Shown here one piece after another: positions 998-36,995 of a stretch of 36,995 nucleotides of DNA. The notes under the pieces were generated by a model. It saw only the letters and a program-made list of their open reading frames with translations, was not told where the DNA came from and did not search any database. Source of the stretch: a virus; IMG/VR virus record IMGVR_UViG_3300032093_000391, positions 1 to 36,995 of that record; one strand, written 5' to 3'. Positions within the stretch are counted from its first letter, which is position 1. Every line of letters begins with the position of its first letter. Position numbers and translations under genes: made by a program.

Positions 998-1357
998 AGT
1001 TTTTCCCTCCGAAAAATAGGCAATCCGTTTTGCCGATGTAGATTCTTTTACAGACCGATTATGGCAAGAATAAGGCAACCTAGAATTTATTACATGACAT
1101 TTTGGTAATGTGGGAGTAATGTTGCGTTAACCGAAAACGGAAAAAATAGGTGTTTTAGGCGTATGTATAGGTAGCCTAGGCGACAACCAGGCCGCGCGGG
1201 GCTATGTAGTTGGCGAAAAAGGCTTTTTTCATTTTTCCTAGGCTTTCTAGGTATTATTATATTAACCAACTGCCACTTAGATATTAATTAACATATGTAA
1301 AGTATAATGACCTATAGGATAGTTGTACTATCTCACTTGGGGGCGATGAAAAACGCA

Positions 1358-1393
1358 TGACCTAGAATGCCTAGATGACCTAGCGATGACCTA
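1358..1393. repeat. Array 1 of 9-base repeats (TGACCTA core)
   Basis: Exact TGACCTA copies start at 1358, 1376 and 1387. A degenerate unit (ATGCCTA) at 1367 preserves a 9-base step from 1358 to 1376. A solitary copy starts at 1308. Directly left of the array, 1343-1364 is a 22-base element that recurs at 1487-1508 with its central five A's replaced by five T's. Such closely spaced short direct repeats are typical of protein-binding iterons or operator clusters. Confidence 0.7.
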
Positions 1394-1501
1394 TCGCTCC
1401 CCAAGCCCCGCGCATCACGCCTATGCGTTACGTAACAGAACCCGTTGCGTATCATGTTAGCAGCTAGCTGGCGCCGTCGCGCTGGCGCGATGTTTTTCGC
1501 A

Positions 1502-1526
1502 TGACCTATTTGACCTAGATGACCTA
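1502..1526. repeat. Array 2 of 9-base repeats (TGACCTA core)
   Basis: Three exact TGACCTA copies at 1502, 1511 and 1520 are spaced exactly 9 bases apart. The array starts 144 bases from array 1 and has the same left flank (GCGATG, five identical bases, CGCATGACCTA). The duplicated arrangement of flank plus repeats suggests a binding region used twice. Read on the minus strand, it could also be a repeated three-residue peptide motif. Confidence 0.7.
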
Positions 1527-1759: not shown

Positions 1760-2209
1760 ATGGCAGTCTTTTCGCTCCCCTATGAGCCGCGCAAATTGGA
1801 AGCCACCGAGGCGCGGCTTGAAGCCATCTATCACGCCGCGCGTAATGGATTGCGTGGCGAGGCGTTGGCGCTCGCATCCGGCATGACGCCGACCGAATAC
1901 CGCGCGCTGTGCGAGTTCGACCCGCTGGCGGCGCTGGCCGCGGAGAAGGGCCGGGCCGACGGCGAGATGGAAATGTCCAAGGTGCTGCATGACGCCGCCC
2001 GCGCCGGCGACGCCAAGGCGGCGCTGGATGTGCTGAAGCACGTCCATGGCTGGGTCGCCAAGCAGGCGGTGCAGGTCGAGGTCAACCAGACCATCTCCAT
2101 CACCTCCGCACTGCAAGAGGCCCAGCGGCGCGTCATCGAGGGGGTAACGGTGCCGGATGAAGACTTGCTGTCGTCGAATAGGGTAGAAAATGCAGACCAC
2201 ACGGTATAG
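1760..2209 (+). CDS. terS: Terminase small subunit-like
   Basis: DNA-recognition subunit of the packaging motor. The 149-residue protein opens with a helical region (EARLEAIYHAARNGL) and a helix-turn-helix-like segment (ALASGMTPTEYRALCEFDP). A helical oligomerisation region follows, with KAALDVLKHVHGW, a stretch typical of small terminase subunits. It lies immediately upstream of the large subunit and overlaps it by 20 bases, the usual arrangement. The start at 1760 has no ribosome site. The next in-frame Met lies well inside the protein, so I keep 1760 and suggest leaderless translation from the promoter at 1726-1753. As the first gene of the late operon it sets the left boundary of the virion genes. 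Confidence 0.8.
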   Translation: MAVFSLPYEPRKLEATEARLEAIYHAARNGLRGEALALASGMTPTEYRALCEFDPLAALAAEKGRADGEMEMSKVLHDAARAGDAKAALDVLKHVHGWVAKQAVQVEVNQTISITSALQEAQRRVIEGVTVPDEDLLSSNRVENADHTV

Positions 2210-3713
2210 CGCCGACGACGAAATGGAACTGATGAGCCGGCTGTGGACGCCGGCCATCAAGGACGACCCGCTGAAGTTCGTGTTGTTCGTGTTCCCGTGG
2301 GGCCAGCCTGGCACACCGCTGGAACACTTCGACGGCCCGCGCAAGTGGCAGCGCGAGGTGCTGCAACGCATCGCCGACCATGTGAAGCAGAACAACGGCA
2401 AGATCGACTTCGACACGCTTCGAATGGCGACATCATCCGGCCGCGGGATCGGCAAGTCGGCCTTAGTCAGTTGGCTGGTCATCTGGATGCTGACCACGCG
2501 GATTGGCTCGACAACCATCGTGTCGGCCAACTCCGAGGCGCAGCTTCGGTCGATCACATGGGCGGAAATTACCAAGTGGCTCTCGATGGCGCTTAACAGC
2601 CACTGGTTCGAGGTCAGCGCCACGCGGCTGATGCCGGCCAAGTGGCTGACGGAACTGGTGGAGCGCGACCTCAAGATGGGCACCCGGTACTGGGGCGTCG
2701 AGGGCCGGCTGTGGTCGGCGGAGAACCCCGACGCCTACGCGGGGGTCCACAACTTCGCCGGGGTCATGCTGGTGTTCGACGAAGCCAGCGGTATCGACGA
2801 CAGCATCTGGTCGGTCGCGGCGGGCTTCTTCACGGAGAACACGCCGCACCGCTTCTGGCTGGCGTTCAGCAACCCGCGGCGCAACAGCGGCTACTTCTAC
2901 GAGTGCTTCCACTCCAAGCGCGACTTCTGGGACACCAAGATCGTGGACGCGCGCACGGTCGAGCATACGGACAAGCAGGTCTATCAGCAGATCATCGACG
3001 AATACGGCCCCGACAGCACCCAGGCCCACGTCGAGGTGTACGGTCAGTTCCCCAACGCGTCCGACGACCAGTTCATCGGGGCCAGCACTGTCGACGACGC
3101 CATGCGGCGGCCGCAGCACAAAGACCCGTCGGCGCCCATCATCATCGGCGTGGACCCGGCACGGTTCGGGTCCGACAGCACGGTTATCGCCATCCGGCAG
3201 GGACGCGACATCGTGGCGATCAAGCGCCACAAGGGCGACGACACCATGACGGTGGTGGGCCACGTCATCGACGCCATCGAAACGTACAAGCCGGCGTTGG
3301 TGGTGATCGACGAGGGCGGCCTAGGCGCCGGCATCGTCGACCGGCTGAAGGAGCAGCGGTACAAGATCAAGGGGGTCAACTTCGGGAACAAGTCGAAGAA
3401 CCCGCTGATGTGGGGCAACAAGCGGGCCGAGATGTGGGGCGAGATGCGGACCTGGCTGAAGGACGCGTCCATCCCGCTGGACCGCTACCTCAAGAACGAC
3501 CTGACCGGGCCGATGATGAAACCGGACAGTAAAGGGACTATCTTCTTGGAAAGCAAAAAGGATATGAAGGCCCGCGGGCTGGCCAGTCCTGACGCGGCCG
3601 ACGCCATCGCGGTGACGTTTGCGTTTCCTGTGGCCCACCGGGAATTTGTTGACAGGGCACCGCGCAGGGCCTATGCTCCGGGCGGAATTTCAAACTCTTG
3701 GATGGGGGCGTAA
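2190..3713 (+). CDS. terL: Terminase large subunit (ATPase-nuclease)
   Basis: The packaging motor that pumps DNA into the prohead and cuts it. At 507 residues it has the usual length. The ATPase half shows a Walker A-like SSGRGIGKSA (residues 82-91) and a Walker B VMLVFDEAS (192-200, D197/E198). The RNase H-fold nuclease half shows IIGVDPARFG (D322), VVIDEGG (D374/E375) and DAADAIAV (D468/D471), a complete set of acidic residues. The start overlaps the small subunit. The Walker A is of the variant G-R-G-I-G-K-S type common in terminases. The mode of packaging cannot be told from the sequence. The permuted-looking ends would fit headful packaging. Confidence 0.95.
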   Translation: MQTTRYSADDEMELMSRLWTPAIKDDPLKFVLFVFPWGQPGTPLEHFDGPRKWQREVLQRIADHVKQNNGKIDFDTLRMATSSGRGIGKSALVSWLVIWMLTTRIGSTTIVSANSEAQLRSITWAEITKWLSMALNSHWFEVSATRLMPAKWLTELVERDLKMGTRYWGVEGRLWSAENPDAYAGVHNFAGVMLVFDEASGIDDSIWSVAAGFFTENTPHRFWLAFSNPRRNSGYFYECFHSKRDFWDTKIVDARTVEHTDKQVYQQIIDEYGPDSTQAHVEVYGQFPNASDDQFIGASTVDDAMRRPQHKDPSAPIIIGVDPARFGSDSTVIAIRQGRDIVAIKRHKGDDTMTVVGHVIDAIETYKPALVVIDEGGLGAGIVDRLKEQRYKIKGVNFGNKSKNPLMWGNKRAEMWGEMRTWLKDASIPLDRYLKNDLTGPMMKPDSKGTIFLESKKDMKARGLASPDAADAIAVTFAFPVAHREFVDRAPRRAYAPGGISNSWMGA

Positions 3714-28629: not shown

Positions 28630-29292
28630 ATGAACGAAGTCGCGAAATTCGGTAACGCTAACCTCCCCTCCGTGCAATCGCTGGCGCAGTCCCTGCGGTC
28701 GATGGACACCGGCGTGGCCCTTGGCAATACGGTCATCCTGAAGATGGACAAGACCGGCCATTGGGTCTTCGGCGCTGACCAGACCGAAGTGGAAGACGAC
28801 AGCACTTGGGCAGTCAATCCGTTCTCCTTCACCCATGGCTTCATCGCGTGGGGCGACGGTGACGTGCTGGGTGAGAAGATGGTGCCGGTGTCGCATCCCC
28901 TGCCGGAACTGGAGCCTGCCCCGGCTGGTTCCAAGCGCGGTTGGGAAACGCAGGTGGGCATGTCCCTCCAGTGCATGAGCGGCGAAGACAAGGGCATGGA
29001 AGCCCGCTTCTCGACCACCTCGGTGGGCGGCAAGCGCGCCGTTCAGGTGCTGGCGCTGGCCATCGCCACGCAGGTGGAGAAGGATCAGTCCAAGCCTGTG
29101 CCGGTGGTGCGCCTAAAGAAGGAACACTACACCCACAAGTCCTACGGGCGCATCTACACGCCTGTGTTCGACGTGGTGTCGTGGGTGAGCCTTGAAGGCC
29201 CTGCCGCTGCGGAGCCTGAAGCCGAGGCAGAAGCCGAGGAAGAGGCGCCTGCGCCTGCTGACACGGGCCGCCGTCGTCGTCGCGCGGCCTGA
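28630..29292 (+). CDS. ssb: Putative single-strand DNA-binding protein
   Basis: 220 residues with FSFTHGFIAWGDGDVLGEKM, WETQVGMSLQCMSGED and HYTHKSYGRIYTPVFDVVSW, a signature I recall from proteins lying between the Cas4-like nuclease and polymerase in related phages. A C-terminal acidic stretch (EAEAEAEEEAP) is typical of phage single-strand binding proteins. It ends in RRRRRAA, which is unusual, because acidic tips normally end the protein. The OB fold is inferred from order and composition, so the name is provisional. AAAGGAA precedes the start, and a hairpin follows the stop. Confidence 0.6.
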   Translation: MNEVAKFGNANLPSVQSLAQSLRSMDTGVALGNTVILKMDKTGHWVFGADQTEVEDDSTWAVNPFSFTHGFIAWGDGDVLGEKMVPVSHPLPELEPAPAGSKRGWETQVGMSLQCMSGEDKGMEARFSTTSVGGKRAVQVLALAIATQVEKDQSKPVPVVRLKKEHYTHKSYGRIYTPVFDVVSWVSLEGPAAAEPEAEAEAEEEAPAPADTGRRRRRAA

Positions 29293-29300
29293 GAAGGAAT

Positions 29301-29328
29301 GGCCCTCGGCGCAAGCCGGGGGCCTTTT
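29301..29328 (+). terminator. Hairpin with T-run before DNA polymerase
   Basis: GGCCCTCGG (29301-29309) pairs with CCGGGGGCC (29316-29324) over nine pairs including one T-G wobble, around a CGCAAG loop and followed by TTTT. It starts 8 bases after the stop of the preceding gene and ends 4-5 bases before the polymerase start. It looks like an intrinsic terminator acting as an attenuator. It would also bury the GGGGG that is the only candidate ribosome site for the polymerase gene. Confidence 0.65.
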
Positions 29329-29332
29329 CAGC

Positions 29333-31297
29333 ATGATCCTCTGGCTTGACTTTGAAACCCGCAGCCGCTGCGACCTGACCAGCGCGGGCGTTTACAATTA
29401 CGCGCAGGACGGCAGCACCGAAGTGTTGTGCATGTCCTACGCCTTCGACGATGAGGACGTGGTGACCTGGCAGCCGGGTCAACCTTTCCCTGACCGCGTG
29501 GCGCAGCACCGGGGCCAGATACGCGCCCACAACGCCGCCTTCGAGCGGCTGGTCTTCTGGTATGTGTTGGCGCCCGAGCATGGCTTCCCCGAGCCGGCGC
29601 TGGAGCAGTTCTATTGCACCGCAACGCAGGCGCGGGCCAACTGCGCGCCCGGCAGTCTGGAGGACGTGGGGCGCTTCGCCGGCGCGGGTATGAAGAAAGA
29701 CCACCGCGGCGCCCAACTGATCCGCGCCCTGTCGATCCCCAAGCCCGACGGCACCTTCCGCGAGGACGCCGATCTGCTGGCCGAGATGGTGGCTTACTGC
29801 GAACAGGACGTGCGCGCCATGCGCGCCGTCAGCAAGGCCATGCGCGACCTATCTGATGAAGAACTGGCCGACTACCATGTAAACGAGCGGATCAACGACC
29901 GTGGGGTGCTGGTGGACACCGCGCTGTGCGGTGCTGCGGTGCGCTACGCCGCCGACGAATTGGTCGAAATCCAGCAGACCGTGCGTGAGGTGACCGAGGG
30001 CGTCATCACCAGCGTCAGAAGCCCCAAGATGCGGGCGTGGGTCGAACACCGGGTGGGCGCGCAGGCGCGCAAGCTAATGACCGTCTGGAAGGACGGGGTG
30101 CCCAAGGTGTCGATCGACAAGACCGTGCGCGCCAACCTGCTGGCACTGGCCGATGAGAACGCCGACGAAGTGCCGCCCGACGTGGCCGAGGTGATCCAGT
30201 GCGCCGATGACCTGTGGGCCAGCAGCGTGGCCAAGTTTAGCCGTGCGGCGGCGCTGGCCGACGCCGAGGACCAGCGGGTGCGCGGCGCGTTTGTCTTCGC
30301 CGGCGGCGCTGCCACAGGCCGGGCCAGCAGCTACGGCTTGCAGGTCCACAACTTCCCGCGCAAGTGCGCCGAGGCGCCCGACGACGTGCGGCAGGCCATG
30401 GTGCGCGCACATCAGATCGTGCCGCGCTACGGCAAGCGCGTCACGGACGTGCTGAAGGGGATGCTGCGCCCTGCCCTGCTGCCGTCGCCCGGCAAGGTGC
30501 TGGTGGCGGCGGATTGGTCGGCCATCGAGGCGCGCGTGAACCCGTGGTTGTCCGGTGCCGGCGACGACAAGCTGGAACTGTTTCGCACCGGCAAGGACGT
30601 TTACAAGGTCAACGCCATGGCGACCTTCCGCGTGGCCATGGACGAGGTCACCAAGGACCAGCGCCAGGTCGGCAAGGTGCAGGAGTTGGCCTGCGGCTTC
30701 GCGGGCGGCGTGGGCGCCTTCGCTGCCATGGGGCGCGTCTACGGCGTTCACATGCCTGAGAGCGAGGCACAGCGCATGGTTGACGCGTGGCGCCGGGCGA
30801 ACCCGTGGGCCGTGCCGTTCTGGCAGGGGTTGGAGGGCGCCTATACCCGCGCCATGCGGAACAAGGGCCATGAGTTCAGCGCCGGGCGGGTGACGTATTT
30901 GTTCGACGGGGTGCATCTTTGGTATGCGCTGCCCTCTGGTCGTGTGCTATGTTACCCCTTTGCGAAGCTAGAACCGGATGGGGTCACCTATGCTAAAGCC
31001 TCATGGAAGCCCGGCGCGGACGCTACCGAGTGGCCGCGCGCCCGCCTGTGGCGCGGGCTGGCCTGCGAGAACGTCACGCAGGCAGCGGCCCACGACCTGC
31101 TGCGGCACAGCCTGCGGCGGCTAGAGGCGGACGGGCAGGACGTGGTGCTGCATGTGCATGACGAAATCGTGGTCGAAACGGCCGACCCCGACGCCACCGT
31201 CGCCGCTATGGAGCGGGCGATGTGTGTGCCACCGAATTGGGCGGGCGGCATCCCGCTCAATATCGAGGCCGAAGTGATGACGCGTTACGGGAAATGA
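29333..31297 (+). CDS. DNA polymerase I, family A
   Basis: Replicative polymerase with proofreading. The start at 29333 (MILWLDFETRSRCDL) is chosen because the exonuclease motif begins at once; an upstream ATG at 29192 lies within the previous gene. Exo I DFE (D6, E8), Exo II AHNAAFERLV, Exo III YCEQD (D159). Pol motif A AADWSAIEAR (D394), a motif B region with RQVGKVQELACGFAGGVGAF, and motif C HVHDEIVVE (D610, E611). At 654 residues it lacks the 5'-3' exonuclease of bacterial Pol I, as is usual for phage enzymes. Only 12 bases and an RNA hairpin separate it from the preceding gene. Confidence 0.95.
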   Translation: MILWLDFETRSRCDLTSAGVYNYAQDGSTEVLCMSYAFDDEDVVTWQPGQPFPDRVAQHRGQIRAHNAAFERLVFWYVLAPEHGFPEPALEQFYCTATQARANCAPGSLEDVGRFAGAGMKKDHRGAQLIRALSIPKPDGTFREDADLLAEMVAYCEQDVRAMRAVSKAMRDLSDEELADYHVNERINDRGVLVDTALCGAAVRYAADELVEIQQTVREVTEGVITSVRSPKMRAWVEHRVGAQARKLMTVWKDGVPKVSIDKTVRANLLALADENADEVPPDVAEVIQCADDLWASSVAKFSRAAALADAEDQRVRGAFVFAGGAATGRASSYGLQVHNFPRKCAEAPDDVRQAMVRAHQIVPRYGKRVTDVLKGMLRPALLPSPGKVLVAADWSAIEARVNPWLSGAGDDKLELFRTGKDVYKVNAMATFRVAMDEVTKDQRQVGKVQELACGFAGGVGAFAAMGRVYGVHMPESEAQRMVDAWRRANPWAVPFWQGLEGAYTRAMRNKGHEFSAGRVTYLFDGVHLWYALPSGRVLCYPFAKLEPDGVTYAKASWKPGADATEWPRARLWRGLACENVTQAAAHDLLRHSLRRLEADGQDVVLHVHDEIVVETADPDATVAAMERAMCVPPNWAGGIPLNIEAEVMTRYGK

Positions 31298-31307
31298 GGA
31301 GGGAAAG

Positions 31308-33617
31308 ATGGATTTCATAGAGTTTCTGGAAAGCCTGGCGCCGCAGCGGGAGACGCTGCTGGTGGTCAGACAAAAGCCTGTCATGCGCGAGGGCGCGCAG
31401 GTGCTACACGCGGACGGGTCGCCGAAATACACCTGGCCGGCGTTCCTGCCGTCCAAGCGGAAAGGGGAGGGGGCCTGGTATGCGAACACCGGCTCCTTCA
31501 TCTTGGAGCGGTTCAAGGACGGCCAGCCGTCGGCCTCGTCGGCCAATTGCGAATACGTCCTTGTGATGATGCTGGACGATGTGGGGACCAAGGCGAAGAC
31601 GCCGCCCCTGCCGCCGACCTGGATCATGGAAACCAGCGAGGGGTCGTTCCAATGGGGCTACGCCTTCAGCGACCAGCCCACTAAGGGCGAGTTCACCGCA
31701 GCCATGGACGCCATCGCGGCGGCTGGCTACACCGACCCCGGCGCGACCAACGCGGTGCGGAACTTCCGCCTGCCGGGCAGCGTGAACCTGAAGCCCGGCC
31801 GTGGTGAGTTCAAGGCCCGGCTGGTCGAGTTCTACCCCGACCGCGAGTTCACCCTGCCGCAGATATGCGAAGCGCTGGGCGTCGCGCCTGCCGCGGCTGA
31901 CACGGCGGCGCAGCGCGCGTTCAAGCTGCGCGACACGGGCAAGGACAGCGTTCTGGGCTGGCTGAACGAGCAGGGCCTAGTCCTGTCTGGCGTCAACGCC
32001 GAGGGCTGGCTGGGCGTCGTCTGCCCCAACCATGGCGAGCATACCGACGGCCAGATCGGCGCCCGCTACAAGCCGCTGGATCGGTCCTTCTGCTGCTACC
32101 ACGGCCACTGCGAGCATCTGGACACGCGGGCCTTCTTGGGATGGGTGGCAGACAACGGCGGTCCCCGCGTCACGCCCGGCTTGCGCGATGAGTTGCTGGC
32201 CGAACACATGGCGCGGGCCATGGACAAGCTGGCGCCCACAGCCGAATACCCTGACCGGGCGGCGGAGATCATCGCCGAGGTCGACCGGAAGGAGGCCAGC
32301 CGGGTCCAGAAATCGCAGTGGTATGAGCGTTTCGCCTATGTCGTGTCGGACGACAGCTTCTTCGACCTTCAGGAACGCCGCGAGATTACCCGGTATTCCT
32401 TCAACGCCTTGTTCCGGCATGTGCCCTGCAAGTCGATCCACAACGCCCGCAAGATCGAGGCCGCCACCTGTTTCGATGAGAACCGTCAGGCCATGGGCGC
32501 GCGGGTGCTGGAGGGCGTCACCTACGCCGCCGGCGAGAGCGTGCTGGTCACGCGCAATGGCGTCGTCTATGGCAACCGCTGGCGCGATGGCCGCCCCGAC
32601 GTGTCGAAGGTGGCGCATGAGGACATCAGCATCTGGCAGCAGCACTGCCGGCGGCTGGTGCCAGACGAGGCCGAGTTGAACCACCTGTGGGACATCATGG
32701 CCTTCAAGACGCAGAACCCGCGCGTCAAGATCAACCACGCCGTATTGCACGGCGGCCATGGCGGCAGCGGTAAGGATACCATGTGGGCGCCGTTCCTGTG
32801 GGCCGTGTGCGGGCCGGGGCTGGTCAACCGGGGGCTGGTGGATGGCGATTCGCTGAACAGCCAGTGGGGCTACGCGCTGGAGAGCGAAGTGATCATCCTG
32901 AACGAGTTGAAGGAGCCGGAAGCCGCCACCAGGCGCGCGCTGGCCAACAGGCTGAAGCCCATCATTGCCGCGCCGCCTGAGATGCTGACGGTCAACCGTA
33001 AGGGCCTGCACCCCTACGATACCGTCAACCGCGCCTTCGTGCTGGCCTTCAGTAACGACCCGGTGCCGATCACGATCAGCAGCGATGACCGCCGCTGGTT
33101 CGTGCTGTGGTCGCAGGCGCCCATCATGGCCGAGGCCGAGGCCAAGCTGATCTGGCGCTGGTACAAGGAAGGCTTGGGGTTTGAGAAGGTCGCCAAGTGG
33201 CTGCACAGCCGCGACGTGTCGGCGTTCAACCCCGGCGCGGCGCCTGTGCTTAACGACGCTAAGGCCAACCTGATCGAGCATAGCATGAGCATGGCCGAAA
33301 GCTTCATTGTCGAACTGATCCGCAACCGCCAAGGCGACTTCGCCAAGGGCGTCATTGCCTCGCCCTTCCATGCCGTGTGCGACCGCCTGAGCGGCTTGGC
33401 CCCGCCAGGCGTCAAGATACCGCAGCCCGCGCTGCTTCACGCGCTGAAGGAAGCCAAGTGGGTGGATGTTGGCAGGGTGGGGACGGTCGAGTTGATGAAC
33501 AAGAAGCACATCTTTGCGACGCCCGAGATGGCGAAGAAGTATTCGAAAAGCGACCTCCGGCGCATTGTAGAAGAAGAGGCCGCGCCGAAGGTGGTCAACC
33601 TCAAAGCGGTGGGTTAG
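31308..33617 (+). CDS. Primase-helicase: AEP primase plus SF3-type helicase
   Basis: 769 residues, two functional halves. The first 250 residues look like an archaeo-eukaryotic primase/RepB-type domain: MMLDD (D90, D91) is followed by RNFRLPGSVNLKPG. A Cys/His cluster (CPNHGEHTDGQ ... CCYHGHCEH) suggests a zinc-binding linker at about 245-275. The last 400 residues are a superfamily 3-type helicase (DUF5906-like): Walker A HGGHGGSGKDT (G482-T491), Walker B VIILNEL and NRAFVLAFSNDPVP with SSDDRRWFVLW as sensor and Arg finger. A perfect AGGAGGG precedes the ATG. It ends the rightward replication operon and overlaps the convergent gene by 17 bases. Confidence 0.9.
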   Translation: MDFIEFLESLAPQRETLLVVRQKPVMREGAQVLHADGSPKYTWPAFLPSKRKGEGAWYANTGSFILERFKDGQPSASSANCEYVLVMMLDDVGTKAKTPPLPPTWIMETSEGSFQWGYAFSDQPTKGEFTAAMDAIAAAGYTDPGATNAVRNFRLPGSVNLKPGRGEFKARLVEFYPDREFTLPQICEALGVAPAAADTAAQRAFKLRDTGKDSVLGWLNEQGLVLSGVNAEGWLGVVCPNHGEHTDGQIGARYKPLDRSFCCYHGHCEHLDTRAFLGWVADNGGPRVTPGLRDELLAEHMARAMDKLAPTAEYPDRAAEIIAEVDRKEASRVQKSQWYERFAYVVSDDSFFDLQERREITRYSFNALFRHVPCKSIHNARKIEAATCFDENRQAMGARVLEGVTYAAGESVLVTRNGVVYGNRWRDGRPDVSKVAHEDISIWQQHCRRLVPDEAELNHLWDIMAFKTQNPRVKINHAVLHGGHGGSGKDTMWAPFLWAVCGPGLVNRGLVDGDSLNSQWGYALESEVIILNELKEPEAATRRALANRLKPIIAAPPEMLTVNRKGLHPYDTVNRAFVLAFSNDPVPITISSDDRRWFVLWSQAPIMAEAEAKLIWRWYKEGLGFEKVAKWLHSRDVSAFNPGAAPVLNDAKANLIEHSMSMAESFIVELIRNRQGDFAKGVIASPFHAVCDRLSGLAPPGVKIPQPALLHALKEAKWVDVGRVGTVELMNKKHIFATPEMAKKYSKSDLRRIVEEEAAPKVVNLKAVG

Positions 33618-33804
33618 GGCGGCCCATCGTTTCATTAGGCTGGATGCGGACCTCTTTATTGGGCCACGTCCAGCACTGCCCTGTGGCGTCTTGGAAGCAG
33701 ACCCACAACAGGTCTGCCTCCGGCCCGTAATCTATCACCAGGTGCGCCCACGCCCGCCCCTTGGGCGTCAACAGCGGCAGGGGCGGGTTCAGTTGCTGGA
33801 TCAA
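33601..33804 (-). CDS. Small phage protein, TTG start (67 aa)
   Basis: I place the start at TTG 33804. It forms a TTGA overlap with the stop of the upstream gene and has GGGAG 7 bases before it; an ATG at 33852 would extend into that gene without support. The product LIQQLNPPLPLLTPKGRAWA, then LVIDYGPEADLLWVCF and CWTWPNKEVRIQ has the look of a small protein that I recall from many environmental phages. The function is unknown. This is the last gene of the long leftward operon. Its end overlaps the primase gene by 17 bases. Confidence 0.75.
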   Translation of the reverse strand: MIQQLNPPLPLLTPKGRAWAHLVIDYGPEADLLWVCFQDATGQCWTWPNKEVRIQPNETMGRPNPPL

Positions 33805-34175
33805 GCCTTTTCTCCCAGCGCCGCGCGCGTTTCCGGTTTCAACTTGTCCCAATCGCCGCGCCAGACATGCTTCGCCAAATCCTGCACAGCAGCGCGCAGC
33901 TTTTCGATTTCATCTCTGGCCTCTTGGTAATCAGATAGGTAGGCATGGTTTGAGGCGGCGAGTTTCGCGTTCTCCGCCTTCAACGTAACCGCCTCGGCGC
34001 AGAATTGCGTGGTGCTTTGACCCCGCGCGCAACCGCCAACCTTCAGTTTTTCGTTCTCTGCCTTCAGCGCATCACGCTCGGCGGCGAGGGAGCGGAGGGC
34101 GGCGGCACGGATGGGGAAGTTGTCGATGTCGCAGCCGCCCGCCATGCGGAGGGCATCTTCCGTGGTGATGGTCAT
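33801..34175 (-). CDS. Coiled-coil phage protein (124 aa)
   Basis: Begins MTITTEDALRMAGGCDIDNF. Residues about 27-100 are heptad-rich helix (LRSLAAERDALKAENEKLKV, then EAVTLKAENAKLAASN and EARDEIEKLRAAV). The rest is polar. The composition resembles Ea22/ead-type accessory proteins of lambdoid phages, but I see no defining domain. An ATGA overlap with the upstream gene and a TTGA overlap with the next give tight coupling in the small-gene operon. The function is unknown. Confidence 0.7.
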   Translation of the reverse strand: MTITTEDALRMAGGCDIDNFPIRAAALRSLAAERDALKAENEKLKVGGCARGQSTTQFCAEAVTLKAENAKLAASNHAYLSDYQEARDEIEKLRAAVQDLAKHVWRGDWDKLKPETRAALGEKA

Positions 34176-34384
34176 GTCAGCACCGCCAGCGCCAACGCCA
34201 ACGTCAGCACCACAAGCGATTTAATAATTCGCTCTACCACCCGCTCCAGCCGCAGGATAGCTGTGCGCTGAGCCGATCCATCGGCCTCCAGCCACTCCAC
34301 CCGCGCCTTTAGCCGGGGCTCTGGCCTGTCGCCTTCTATGAGGGCGCGCAGCATCTCCGCGCGCTCTAGTTCCCTATCTTTCAT
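34172..34384 (-). CDS. Small protein with C-terminal membrane helix (70 aa)
   Basis: The N-terminal 45 residues are charged and helical (ELERAEMLRALIEGDRPEPR). The last 20 (SLVVLTLALALAVLT) form a hydrophobic tail anchor. GGAGG precedes the ATG in the end of the upstream gene. An ATGA overlap links it to both neighbours. It may be a membrane-associated host-takeover protein, but I can assign no function. Confidence 0.7.
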   Translation of the reverse strand: MKDRELERAEMLRALIEGDRPEPRLKARVEWLEADGSAQRTAILRLERVVERIIKSLVVLTLALALAVLT

Positions 34385-34560
34385 TGCCCTTCCTCCTTTT
34401 GTGGCACGAACAGCTTGCGCGCCCGCAGAACGTGCGGGCAGGCCTCTTGCGTTTCTGTCAGGGTGGCGATGGTGCTACGCAGCCGCGCCGCGCCCCACAG
34501 GTCGCCCTCGCGCTCGGCAAGGGCTAGGTTGTCTTGCAAGCGCTCCAGAAAGGTCTTCAT
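34381..34560 (-). CDS. Small phage protein (59 aa)
   Basis: A 59-codon frame lies between two ATGA overlaps (34557-34560 and 34381-34384). The product starts MKTFLERLQDNLALAEREGD and has LWGAARLRSTIATLTETQEAC, followed by a short basic end. Predicted helical, no membrane segment, no family I recognise. Its length and exact stop-start overlaps with both neighbours support it as a real gene of the leftward operon. Confidence 0.75.
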   Translation of the reverse strand: MKTFLERLQDNLALAEREGDLWGAARLRSTIATLTETQEACPHVLRARKLFVPQKEEGQ

Positions 34561-34889
34561 GCTGCCTCCGTGCCGTAGAACGGCTTCAAGCCCTTCAGGG
34601 CCTCGTATAGCTTGCGCTCTGGCGTCGGCATAACGTCAGGGTCCAGCCCGTCCAAATTGAACGGGCCAGGCTGGCCATCCAGCCCGTCCTGCCACGCCCA
34701 GGCCAGCGACCAATACGCCGCCTCCGCCACCTTCAGAAACGCCTTCAGGCGCGCGTCGGCGTCGTCGGCGCGCAGATCGGCAAGCTGCGCCCGCTGGTAG
34801 TGGTGCCATGCGATCTCGCATTGCGCCTTGTGCGCCTGCTCCAGTTCGGCCACGCGCTTGCGTAGCCCGTCATGTGTTAGGTCGTCCAT
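34557..34889 (-). CDS. Phage protein of unknown function (110 aa)
   Basis: I choose ATG 34889 (MDDLTHDGLRKRVAELEQAH) because AGGAGG precedes it by a suitable distance; the frame extends to 34925 without a site. The N-terminal 70 residues are heptad-like helix. A second part is Trp-rich (YWSLAWAWQDGLDGQP) and ends LYEALKGLKPFYG. No known domain. The stop overlaps the next start by ATGA. It lies 8 bases downstream of the zinc-ribbon gene. Confidence 0.7.
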   Translation of the reverse strand: MDDLTHDGLRKRVAELEQAHKAQCEIAWHHYQRAQLADLRADDADARLKAFLKVAEAAYWSLAWAWQDGLDGQPGPFNLDGLDPDVMPTPERKLYEALKGLKPFYGTEAA

Positions 34890-34897
34890 TGTCCCTC

Positions 34898-35197
34898 CTA
34901 GTCTGCCGTCCGGCAGCGGCTGCATAATCTATTACCGGGGCCATAACTGTCAAACATTATTTGACAGCGCAGGCACTTGCGCGGCGTGTAGCCCTTATCC
35001 TCGCGCTCGCGTGTGGGGCTTTTATGGTAGGGGCTATACGCCCCGCGCTTGGCCCACCAGGTCGAGAGCGTCTTAGCCGACACGCCCACGGTCCTGCTGA
35101 TGGCCTCCCATGTCGTGCCCTTGCGCCGTTCATGCGCGATGAAATCGACATGGGCGGCGGCGATGCCTTGCGGCAGGCGGTTGTCAGGCTTTGGCAT
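34898..35197 (-). CDS. Helix-turn-helix / zinc-ribbon protein (99 aa)
   Basis: A small DNA-binding candidate. Residues about 25-51 form a helix-turn-helix-like unit (KGTTWEAISRTVGVSAKTLS followed by TWWAKRG). The C-terminus carries a four-cysteine zinc ribbon: C75-x2-C78 and C92-x2-C95 around MFDSYGPGNR. Such a zinc ribbon following an HTH occurs in phage transcription factors and inhibitors. GGAAGG precedes the ATG. It is the most regulator-like protein in the genome, so the repeats and palindromes at 1343-1620 are natural candidate targets, but this link is pure inference. Confidence 0.75.
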   Translation of the reverse strand: MPKPDNRLPQGIAAAHVDFIAHERRKGTTWEAISRTVGVSAKTLSTWWAKRGAYSPYHKSPTREREDKGYTPRKCLRCQIMFDSYGPGNRLCSRCRTAD

Positions 35198-35378
35198 GGT
35201 GCGCCTTCCAGACCTGCTCGGCCTCGTCTAGCTGGCGTCCAAGCGCGGCTAGGGTGCGCTGGATGCGCCAATGCTCTTCGCTGCCGTCCCATGTCTGCTT
35301 TAGCAGTTCCTCATGGGTCTGGATGCTCGCCATCAGCACGCGCAGGCTACGGAACGGCATGGGTTCAGTAATGATCAT
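35184..35378 (-). CDS. Small helical phage protein (64 aa)
   Basis: Starts at ATG 35378 (MIITEPMPFRSLRVLMASIQ), after GGGGAAG at about 8 bases; the ATG at 35393 has no such support. The rest is helical (THEELLKQTWDGSEEHWRIQ, RTLAALGRQLDEAEQVW). No known domain. The start lies inside the end of the upstream membrane protein gene and its stop overlaps the next gene by 14 bases. Confidence 0.7.
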   Translation of the reverse strand: MIITEPMPFRSLRVLMASIQTHEELLKQTWDGSEEHWRIQRTLAALGRQLDEAEQVWKAHHAKA

Positions 35379-35487
35379 CTTCGTCTTCCCCAATGGTTGT
35401 CTCGATGTAATACGCCAGCAGGGCCAACAGCCCTCCGCCTAGCAGCAGCCCCGCAATGATAACGCGAAGCCAATCCAAAATTGTCAT
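35365..35487 (-). CDS. Small single-pass membrane protein (40 aa)
   Basis: Start chosen at ATG 35487 (MTILDWLRVIIAGLLLGGGL), preceded by GGGGG at about 6 bases. Residues about 8-27 form a Leu/Gly-rich membrane helix, followed by an acidic tail (GEDEDDHY). The longer frame (to 35556) is very Arg-rich and has no ribosome site. Topology and size resemble small phage toxins or lysis-control peptides. The function is unknown. Confidence 0.65.
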   Translation of the reverse strand: MTILDWLRVIIAGLLLGGGLLALLAYYIETTIGEDEDDHY

Positions 35488-35521
35488 TGCATCCCCCTCG
35501 GGTGCGGTGTAACGTGTTCTT

Positions 35522-35560
35522 GTGCGTGGGCGGCTTTCCCTCCCCGACAAGCCCACGCAC
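35522..35560 (-). promoter_or_regulatory. 10-base inverted repeat with Shine-Dalgarno-like loop
   Basis: GTGCGTGGGC (35522-35531) and GCCCACGCAC (35551-35560) are perfect inverted copies around a 19-base loop. On the leftward transcript the loop contains GGGGAGGG. The gap between genes 35585 and 35487 holds only this element and a doubtful 31-codon frame. A hairpin exposing a ribosome-site-like loop could control the downstream genes or protect the message. Confidence 0.5.
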
Positions 35561-35584
35561 CGCCCGCCGGGTTGAGCATCTGCC

Positions 35585-35830
35585 TCACGGCTCCCCGGCG
35601 GGCGGCCCTTTCATGGGTGTCGGGTCGTAATCCCACCCCGGCAGGTAAACCGTCACGGCGTAGCGCTCCCCGGAGAACGTCACCGCCTTGATGCGCGCCA
35701 GCCTGACGCCGCTTCGCATCATTGGCTCGGCCCATTCTATTGCCGTGTCGGCGTGTTCCGGCAGCGGCATGGCGTCGCGCTCGGCCAGCCAGCGCGCGTA
35801 TTGTATGGCCTTCTTTTCGTCGGGTATCAT
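35585..35830 (-). CDS. Phage protein of unknown function (81 aa)
   Basis: Start chosen at ATG 35830 (MIPDEKKAIQYARWLAERDA), with GAGGAAAA before it; a frame to 36034 extends through the methyltransferase-like gene and is a shadow. The protein is helical at first, then has ARIKAVTFSGERYAVTVYLP and ends in a Pro-rich tail with PMKGPPAGEP. No family recognised. ATGA overlap with the upstream tiny gene. Confidence 0.75.
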   Translation of the reverse strand: MIPDEKKAIQYARWLAERDAMPLPEHADTAIEWAEPMMRSGVRLARIKAVTFSGERYAVTVYLPGWDYDPTPMKGPPAGEP

Positions 35831-35886
35831 CGTGTTTTCCTCATTGCAATCAGCAGGCAAAGCGCCCGCAGGATTAGAGTTAGCAT
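35827..35886 (-). CDS. Possible 19-residue hydrophobic peptide
   Basis: ATG at 35886 lies inside the end of the methyltransferase-like gene, after GGGGG at about 7 bases. The frame MLTLILRALCLLIAMRKTR ends with an ATGA overlap to the next gene. The hydrophobic body with a basic tail is typical of tiny membrane peptides. Evidence is its ribosome site and tight overlaps. Its length makes chance a real alternative. Confidence 0.35.
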   Translation of the reverse strand: MLTLILRALCLLIAMRKTR

Positions 35887-36464
35887 GGGTTCCCCCATTG
35901 TTCGGCCATCGCGTCGGCGATGCCTTGGAATGTCGCGCTGCGTATTTTCCACCGATCCGCAGAGGGCGGCAGGTTGTACCATTGCGGCAGGCTGCGCCCT
36001 GACTTGGTGACGTGCCGCGCGCCCTTGCCGACAATGTTGGTTGGCGTCAGGTGCGGCAGGCCCTTCAGCCATAGGCAAGTCGTTTTGGTCGCCTCATGGC
36101 CAAACTGCCAAGGCTGGATTACCTGATCAGGCCTCCTGATCCGGCTTGATATGACGCTGACCGGGTTCTCCAGCGCGATGCGGGCGATGGGCGCGGCCAG
36201 CAGCAGGCGCACGAAGTCCAAGGCCTCGGCTTGTTCCTGCGCCTTGTCCTTGAACCAGCGCGCCCCGCTGACGGCCAAGTGAGTGCAGGGCGGATGGGCG
36301 ATCATTAAATCCCACCCATCGCCTAGAATGTCTTGCACCGGGCCTTGGTAGTGCGGGCCGGGCGTTTCGCTTGGCAGCAGGTCGCAGGATAGGGCGTCAT
36401 GCCCTCGCGCGCGAAAAGCATCCCGCACGGCGCCGGAGTATTCGCAGGCAATTAAGACGCGCAT
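35880..36464 (-). CDS. DNA cytosine methyltransferase-like protein (194 aa)
   Basis: Starts MRVLIACEYSGAVRDAF (SAM-binding motif I-like, ExSG), then SCDLLPSETPGPHYQG and DLMIAHPPCTHLA (PPC at 58-60, catalytic Cys60 position). It continues with ALENPVSVIS (E99-N100-P101, the ENV-like motif VI), KTTCLWLKGLP and GIADAMAEQW. This is the cut-down C5-methyltransferase-like family seen in phages. It keeps the Cys and Glu but lacks an obvious target-recognition domain, so it may modify free nucleotides, act on DNA with another subunit, or protect the genome. Overlaps the 49-aa gene by 13 bases. Confidence 0.8.
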   Translation of the reverse strand: MRVLIACEYSGAVRDAFRARGHDALSCDLLPSETPGPHYQGPVQDILGDGWDLMIAHPPCTHLAVSGARWFKDKAQEQAEALDFVRLLLAAPIARIALENPVSVISSRIRRPDQVIQPWQFGHEATKTTCLWLKGLPHLTPTNIVGKGARHVTKSGRSLPQWYNLPPSADRWKIRSATFQGIADAMAEQWGNPC

Positions 36465-36601
36465 AGGGCGGCCCTTTCATGCTGCGCCAGCACGGCGCGC
36501 AAGATTTCGTCAGCGTCGGCCTTGGTCGGCCATGGGGTGCCATAGAAGGCGCCGCCCGGCGCCCCCACGATGTACCAGAACAAGCCTATCTGCTTTACCA
36601 T
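36452..36601 (-). CDS. Small phage protein (49 aa)
   Basis: ATG at 36601 overlaps the stop of the upstream gene by 7 bases, and GGGGAG lies about 10 bases before it. The product starts MVKQIGLFWYIVGAPGGAFY and ends in a helical ADEILRAVLAQHERAA region. Its first 19 codons recur at 1-59. It lies between the variable 74-aa gene and the methyltransferase-like gene, and overlaps the latter by 13 bases. The function is unknown. Confidence 0.75.
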   Translation of the reverse strand: MVKQIGLFWYIVGAPGGAFYGTPWPTKADADEILRAVLAQHERAALCAS

Positions 36602-36669
36602 TGGTTGCGGTCTCCCCTGTCTAGGCTAGGCCACTGATGCACCGCCGGGCGGCCTGTGCGGTCTGGCAT
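36543..36669. repeat. Right copy of exact 127-base terminal duplication
   Basis: Identical to bases 1-127. It is followed by a first mismatch at 36670, with imperfect similarity to 36819. It covers the start of the 49-aa gene and the 3' end of the 74-aa gene. Unlike the left copy it sits inside the contig, with 326 bases after it. Confidence 0.85.
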
Positions 36670-36819
36670 TTCAAAAACGGCGCCGGGCTTCACGTCGCTG
36701 GTCAGATCCCAATCGTTGCGCCATAGGCGCACGGCATCAATGGGGTTGTGCGCCTCCACTACAAGGCTCATGTCGTTGCCGTTTTCGTCGTCGGAATAGA
36801 CTAGGTATATGCGTGTCAT
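36595..36819 (-). CDS. Small phage protein, allele or paralogue B (74 aa)
   Basis: The second version of the gene at 53-277 (70 of 74 residues identical). I place the start at ATG 36819; a longer frame to 36897 would run through the upstream gene and adds unrelated sequence. It has an ATGA overlap with the upstream partial gene, whereas the left copy has a 3-base gap to a different gene. So the same cassette is joined to two different neighbours. The function is unknown. Confidence 0.8.
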   Translation of the reverse strand: MTRIYLVYSDDENGNDMSLVVEAHNPIDAVRLWRNDWDLTSDVKPGAVFEMPDRTGRPAVHQWPSLDRGDRNQW

Positions 36820-36995
36820 GCTGCACCGCCACGGGCTTCGGCGATGGCGATACGGGCCTGACGCACCATCTCGGCAGCAGGGGAATCGTCTTCCCATTCA
36901 ATGCCGTCATCACGCTCAATTTGCCAAATCAGCGCATGTAGCGCAGCCAGCAGCTTTGGCGCGGCCGCGATCAGCGCCGCGTCGGCCGCGCGCTG
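36816..36995 (-). CDS. Partial helical phage protein, C-terminal 59 residues
   Basis: An open frame enters from the right edge (minus strand) and stops at 36816. The visible end reads DAALIAAAPKLLAALHALIW, then IERDDGIEWEDDSPAAEMVR and ends with ARIAIAEARGGAA. The AAPxLLxAL motif followed by an ARxAIAxA end is a widespread pattern in small phage proteins of unknown function. The ATGA overlap with the 74-aa gene supports it. Its start lies outside the contig. No equivalent exists at the left copy, where the neighbour is the 281-502 gene. Confidence 0.75.
   Translation of the reverse strand, partial: QRAADAALIAAAPKLLAALHALIWQIERDDGIEWEDDSPAAEMVRQARIAIAEARGGAA

Follow-up and report, generated by a model that had tools for sequence, protein, structure and literature searches.

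A divergent gap in the genome of a freshwater phage holds an array of short repeats, which raises the question of what the array does and which protein reads it. The genome is the IMG/VR virus record IMGVR_UViG_3300032093_000391, analysed here over its whole length (36,995 nt, roughly 60% GC; "the window"), with phage genes encoding terminase, a PDDEXK nuclease, PolA and a primase. The original prediction offered two roles for the array, either an initiator-binding site, at a replication origin that adjoins an AT-rich stretch, or an operator switching between early and late operons. The layout, the spacing and the co-variation of the repeats with the primase favour the former, and we consider it very probable that 1147-1526 is the replication origin of the phage, with iterons read by the C-terminal winged helix of its own primase-helicase.

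The large rightward genes all lie in one run from terS to the primase gene, while the small leftward genes extend from 1078 back over the record ends to the end of the primase gene. The array occupies the divergent gap between this leftward small-gene operon and terS, which gave no family match of its own. A second contig (L081), identical to the window across most of its length, joins 33225-36389 to the window start via a short stretch (~76 bp), placing the primase end and the array on one molecule, 4-5 kb apart (4.6 kb from the primase end to terS in L081). The same join makes it possible that the stretch 36390-36995 is a misassembled or variant end. The record ends (1-278 and 36543-36820) form a 278-bp near-duplicate, 95% identical, containing a small leftward gene. 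Related phages are full-size podoviruses of 37-38 kb; the annotated distant relative is a podovirus with a P22-like portal and coat, and a DNA search of phage records returned one distant record, with the match confined to the terminase. To the right of the array are two palindromes (z ~ -4 each), one perfect (1546-1565, 20 bp, kept in several close relatives) and one near-perfect (1594-1623, 30 bp). At the place of the second palindrome, L003 and L009 carry other short tandem repeats upstream of terS (gcgccctggtct and caccacaccag). GC skew was uninformative, without a clear switch at the array. Coordinates of the features are collected in Table 1.

Table 1. Features of the candidate origin, its neighbours and the proposed initiator in the window.
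Feature	Coordinates	Strand	Remarks
Left iteron cluster	1147..1181	-	TAGGY at 1147, 1156, 1168 and 1177; two 9-step pairs (1147/1156, 1168/1177)
Iteron pair TAGGCtttcTAGGT	1239..1252	-	1239/1248; borders the AT-rich stretch; conserved in close relatives
AT-rich stretch, candidate DNA unwinding element	1253..1307	.	55 bp, 80% AT; the region's AT peak over 60 bp is centred here
Single TGACCTA iteron	1308..1314	+	Right border of the AT-rich stretch
Right iteron block 1	1343..1393	+	22-base boundary element 1343-1364, then RCCTA at 1360, 1369, 1378 (9-base steps) and 1389
Right iteron block 2	1487..1526	+	22-base boundary element 1487-1508, then RCCTA at 1504, 1513 and 1522 (9-base steps)
Presumed terS (small terminase)	1760..2209	+	Right neighbour of the candidate origin; overlaps terL (2190-3713)
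Family A DNA polymerase (PolA)	29192..31297	+	PF00476; replication module shared with the primase-helicase
Primase-helicase, 769 aa, proposed initiator	31308..33617	+	AEP-like primase N-terminus, SF3/D5-type helicase (DUF5906), C-terminal winged-helix domain
Predicted winged-helix domain, proposed iteron-binding	33366..33569	+	Codons ~687-754; model m3c7a526646f0, pLDDT 75
Predicted wing GRVGTVELMNKKHI	33471..33512	+	Codons 722-735, with residues 725, 727 and 730

The array is real, and larger than first described. The heptamer TGACCTA stands exactly at each of the seven positions originally listed (1308, 1358, 1376, 1387, 1502, 1511 and 1520), with two further isolated copies elsewhere in the window, giving a count of 9 against 1.6 expected, which none of 100 shuffles reached. 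The unit is wider, however, with a core RCCTA in both orientations that occurs at 18 sites in 1017-1526 (11 on the plus strand and 7, as TAGGY, on the minus strand), mostly at 9-base steps, and the minus-oriented clusters on the left had been overlooked. Between 1001 and 1759, seven RCCTA pairs lie exactly 9 bases apart, compared with 0.007 expected from a regional Markov model (0 of 5000 simulations reaching 7). The 9-step members of the whole window are all confined to the array region, and the best 500-bp stretch holds 16 sites compared with 5 in the runner-up. The iterons point outward from the AT-rich stretch, with minus sites on its left and plus sites from 1308 to 1526 on its right.

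The two 22-base elements that open the right-hand blocks also read exactly as reported (GCGATGAAAAACGCATGACCTA in block 1 and GCGATGTTTTTCGCATGACCTA in block 2). The exchange of AAAAA for TTTTT between them, described as a mirrored flank, is ordinary spacer variation, with AAAAA, TTTTT, TTTTC or GAAAA in relatives. In more distant relatives a complete inverted repeat unit stands at this spot (TAGGCATGACCTA, CTCGGCATGACCGAG), and for this reason it looks in the window like a degenerate inverted iteron with an A/T tract. Several relatives open each right-hand block with an inverted repeat copy, and the 22-base elements of the window look like remnants of such copies.

Searches with terL and terS produced 154 loci. 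In the 97 distinct regions upstream of terS, identical 5-mers at a distance of 9 numbered 1433, compared with 118 in shuffles and far above other distances. In most of 38 phages, the iterons on both sides of the AT peak point outward (114 minus to 36 plus on its left, 83 minus to 258 plus on its right). The relatives keep the array position, the 9-base step and the outward layout, while the repeat unit varies by lineage (ATGACCTAG, ACTGCCGAA, ATGACCCAA, TTGTCCACA and others). A constant architecture with a lineage-specific unit points to changing specificity, and hence to a changing binder. The original prediction had also envisaged that relatives might keep the 81-aa frame over the array (ORF 1333-1578) and lose the spacing; the reverse is seen, since the spacing is kept and the frame, present outside near-identical contigs as broken pieces only, was rejected as a gene.

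The identity of the binder was addressed through co-variation. For 49 longer contigs, iteron similarity was calculated from the weighted overlap of those 6-mers that show enrichment in the region and at the 9-step. It was then correlated with the identity of 60-aa windows (173 in total) covering every conserved protein, corrected for mean protein identity. The best of the 173 covers residues 691-750 of the primase-helicase (r=0.49), and the top 16 are all from the primase, beyond residue 270, while its N-terminus (1-180) gave r=-0.01. The correlation was r=0.475 (p=2e-4) in a dereplicated set of 31 genomes, and the primase C-terminal signal remained after correction for primase 1-600 (r=0.37, p=0.001). 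The terS product, used as a linkage control, reached r=0.12 (p=0.002) and was set aside as an iteron binder because of this weak correlation despite its adjacency to the array. Two binders had originally been proposed for testing. The primase-helicase gains support, which comes from its C-terminal domain, and the helix-turn-helix (HTH) protein encoded at 34898-35197 is rejected, with a weak correlation (r=0.19, p=0.056) and near identity in phages of three different repeat types (G003, G042, G037, G038, G040 and G041). This protein combines the HTH with a C-terminal four-cysteine zinc-ribbon-like motif, and in MW202483.1 a comparably located gene carries the annotation 'dnaa protein helix-turn-helix'.

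Natural swaps of the primase C-terminal domain coincide with swaps of repeat type. G037 and G041 are 97% identical over primase 1-600 but 77% identical in the C-terminus, and their iterons differ. G038/G040, compared with G041, are 91% identical in the rest of the primase and 97% in the C-terminus, and have the same distinct GCG-type repeat; G003 and G042 have almost identical C-termini and the common repeat ACTGCCGAA.

The primase-helicase scores above the cut-off for NrS-1 polymerase-type (DUF5906) SF3 helicases (PF19263, 39.2 bits against 27.6), and matches both the NrS-1 polymerase helicase (6k9c, E=6e-10 over 463-662) and phrog_1156 (DNA primase). A model of the full-length primase was too poor for use. 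The model of the C-terminal 169 residues, of moderate quality (pLDDT 75), contains helices followed by helix 106-115, strand 119-124, a loop and strand 133-137, a predicted winged-helix pattern that would place 725-730 (local 125-130) in the wing. Its fold matches in the PDB were each non-significant, many of them winged-helix proteins (replication terminator protein, PadR, MarR, RFX5), and the top match in a viral structure library was a close homologue described as an NrS-1 polymerase-like helicase protein. A PDB sequence search with the C-terminal profile returned unrelated, insignificant chains only.

Residues 725, 727 and 730 were the best three columns in the 31-genome set. After extension with primase-anchored loci (133 distinct regions, 122 usable) they lead 627 variable primase columns in their association with iteron type (0.59, 0.56 and 0.52), in a set that overlaps the discovery set and with core regexes and triplet chosen with the data in view. 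Iteron similarity is 0.43 for same-triplet pairs at 50-70% primase identity, compared with 0.09 for different-triplet pairs at 95-98%, and in 63 of 73 genomes same-triplet partners (<90% primase identity) predict the repeat better than the closest relative with another triplet. Aligned in a common register, the repeat classes by triplet are TTGTCCACA for KRD; ATGACCCAA for AGQ, AGP and ASP; RCCGCCCAA for ASQ; ACTGCCGAA for DGR; ACTGCCGAG for DSR/DTR; AYTGCGKAK for ETR; ATGACCTAG-like for GVM (the window) and YTL; ATGGCCTAA for AFS; ATAGCCTAA for GFS; ACKRCCCAC for KRT; and ATTGCCCTA for GPQ. A contig binned in a Rhodoferax MAG (L420; primase, iterons and terS) provides a partly out-of-sample case, being at most 76% identical to any other over residues 1-600: it combines the KRD triplet with repeats of the TTGTCCACA type, with an iteron similarity of 0.44 to KRD phages and 0.01 to others. 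Its binning is a weak hint of betaproteobacterial hosts. The triplet is not the whole determinant of the repeat, as G010/L320 have KRD with TGACCCACA and the GFS phages are heterogeneous; arrays are weak in L300 and several KRT phages. The core RCCTAG of the window recurs in G045 (L142) with other wing residues (YTL instead of GVM), and the common core of these two triplets suggests convergent specificity.

These results bear on several other explanations. The array could be an operator without origin function, on which a phage regulator switches the leftward and rightward operons, as its position in a divergent gap between the leftward genes and terS and the nearby palindromes might suggest. 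However, the repeat type tracks the primase C-terminus and no regulator found does so, the HTH protein being near constant across three types, and no sigma-70-like promoter pair was found in 900-1900. An operator of this kind is unlikely, and the early-late switch is left unsupported as the main role; as a second role it is possible, and autoregulation by the primase could make the locus origin and operator at once. It is also very unlikely that the co-variation reflects linkage alone, recombination having moved the array jointly with the primase 3' end while no binding takes place. In relatives, 2-7 kb separate the two (a median of 3.4 kb between primase end and terS over 122 loci), a distance that would allow joint exchange, but terS, adjoining the array, and the HTH gene, between primase and array, correlate much less. 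Moreover, the signal peaks at three wing residues and not over the whole gene end, and same-triplet phages that are 50-70% identical over primase 1-600 still have a common repeat. A pac/cos packaging start site bound by the adjoining small terminase would suit an array immediately upstream of terS-terL and the small residual terS correlation, but is highly improbable, as terS falls far below the primase C-terminus although adjacency should favour it through linkage. Binding of the array by host DnaA is scarcely conceivable: one class (KRD) has a near-match to the E. coli DnaA box, but most classes including that of the window misfit, the window units do not match TTWTNCACA-type boxes, and the unit changes with the phage protein.

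The KRD repeat TTGTCCACA, present upstream of terS in G022 (L051) and other phages of its class, differs by one base from the DnaA box of E. coli and matches that of high-GC actinobacteria exactly. The KRD type might have converged on the DnaA-box sequence, or might share sites with host DnaA.

In the preferred reading as a replication origin, the C-terminal winged-helix domain of the primase-helicase would bind the 9-base iterons, ATGACCTAG-like in the lineage of the window, with wing residues 725, 727 and 730 reading the variable iteron bases. By analogy, the outward iteron blocks on either side of the AT-rich stretch may load primase-helicase hexamers, or helicase rings, on both sides. The loaded helicase would then melt 1253-1307 and unwind outward, leading to bidirectional theta replication, with the primase-helicase supplying the primers and the phage PolA extending them. 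From the sequence we infer that the protein physically binds the array, that the DNA melts and that the origin fires there.

The array is best read as working like the SaPI/PICI Rep/ori and P4 alpha/ori replicons, but in podoviruses of full size and at a distance from the initiator gene. The SaPI/PICI Rep-ori systems (SaPIbov1, SaPI1, EcCICFT073; PMC6092414, PMC7581432) belong to satellites, whereas the phages here are full-size, and no other known bacterial replicon was said to have their layout (PMC6092414). PICI origins lie just 3' of rep (PMC6092414), whereas here 2-7 kb (median 3.4 kb, and 4.6 kb in L081) separate the array, in its divergent intergenic gap, from the initiator gene, with a fixed 9-base step and a repeat specificity split into many classes. 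This distance counts against the reading, and because of it we compare the locus to a PICI origin in its working without classing it as one. P4 alpha is a primase-helicase of similar size (777 aa), the short type 1 repeats of P4 ori1 run in both orientations with steps of 9-11 bases, and P4 ori likewise occupies a divergent gap, between the leftward alpha operon and the rightward late operon. P4 differs in its repeat (GGTGAACA) and in having a second site, crr. The locus is not filed as a P4 member because nothing resembling a second site such as crr was found (in 11/11 phages checked, all 9-step sites fall within a single region) and no P4 alpha homology was detected (hhalign probability 0.9%, E 0.059, 45 columns, a weak test with its single-sequence template).

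Other systems are further removed. The NrS-1 primase-polymerase (6K9C/6LRB; PMC7102993, PMC8718748) shares the helicase family, but has only two copies of an 8-nt recognition site, read as a primase template, in place of a large array, and the window phage has a separate PolA. The SCCmec Cch2 helicase (PMC7581432) resembles the proposed initiator in that its C-terminal domain, taken alone, binds short direct repeats of a putative origin, but it involves three 5-nt repeats only, in a non-viral island with primase activity on separate proteins. Geminivirus Rep and its iterons (PMC12548392) involve an unrelated protein and rolling-circle replication of ssDNA.

In over 100 related phages, changes in the repeat sequence go along with changes at three amino acids of the primase. 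If the origin reading is true, origin and initiator would be assigned from sequence alone for a large group of uncultured freshwater podoviruses, and full-size phages would join the phage-inducible islands in having a replicon layout that was described as exclusive to the latter. The data set, with its natural domain swaps, would make the DNA-recognition code of an initiator directly readable and testable. More tentatively, the three wing residues may set the origin iteron across a large podovirus clade, as a legible natural code, and modular exchange of domain and array may have given rise to many mutually incompatible origin types, perhaps selected by co-infection or origin-targeting defence.
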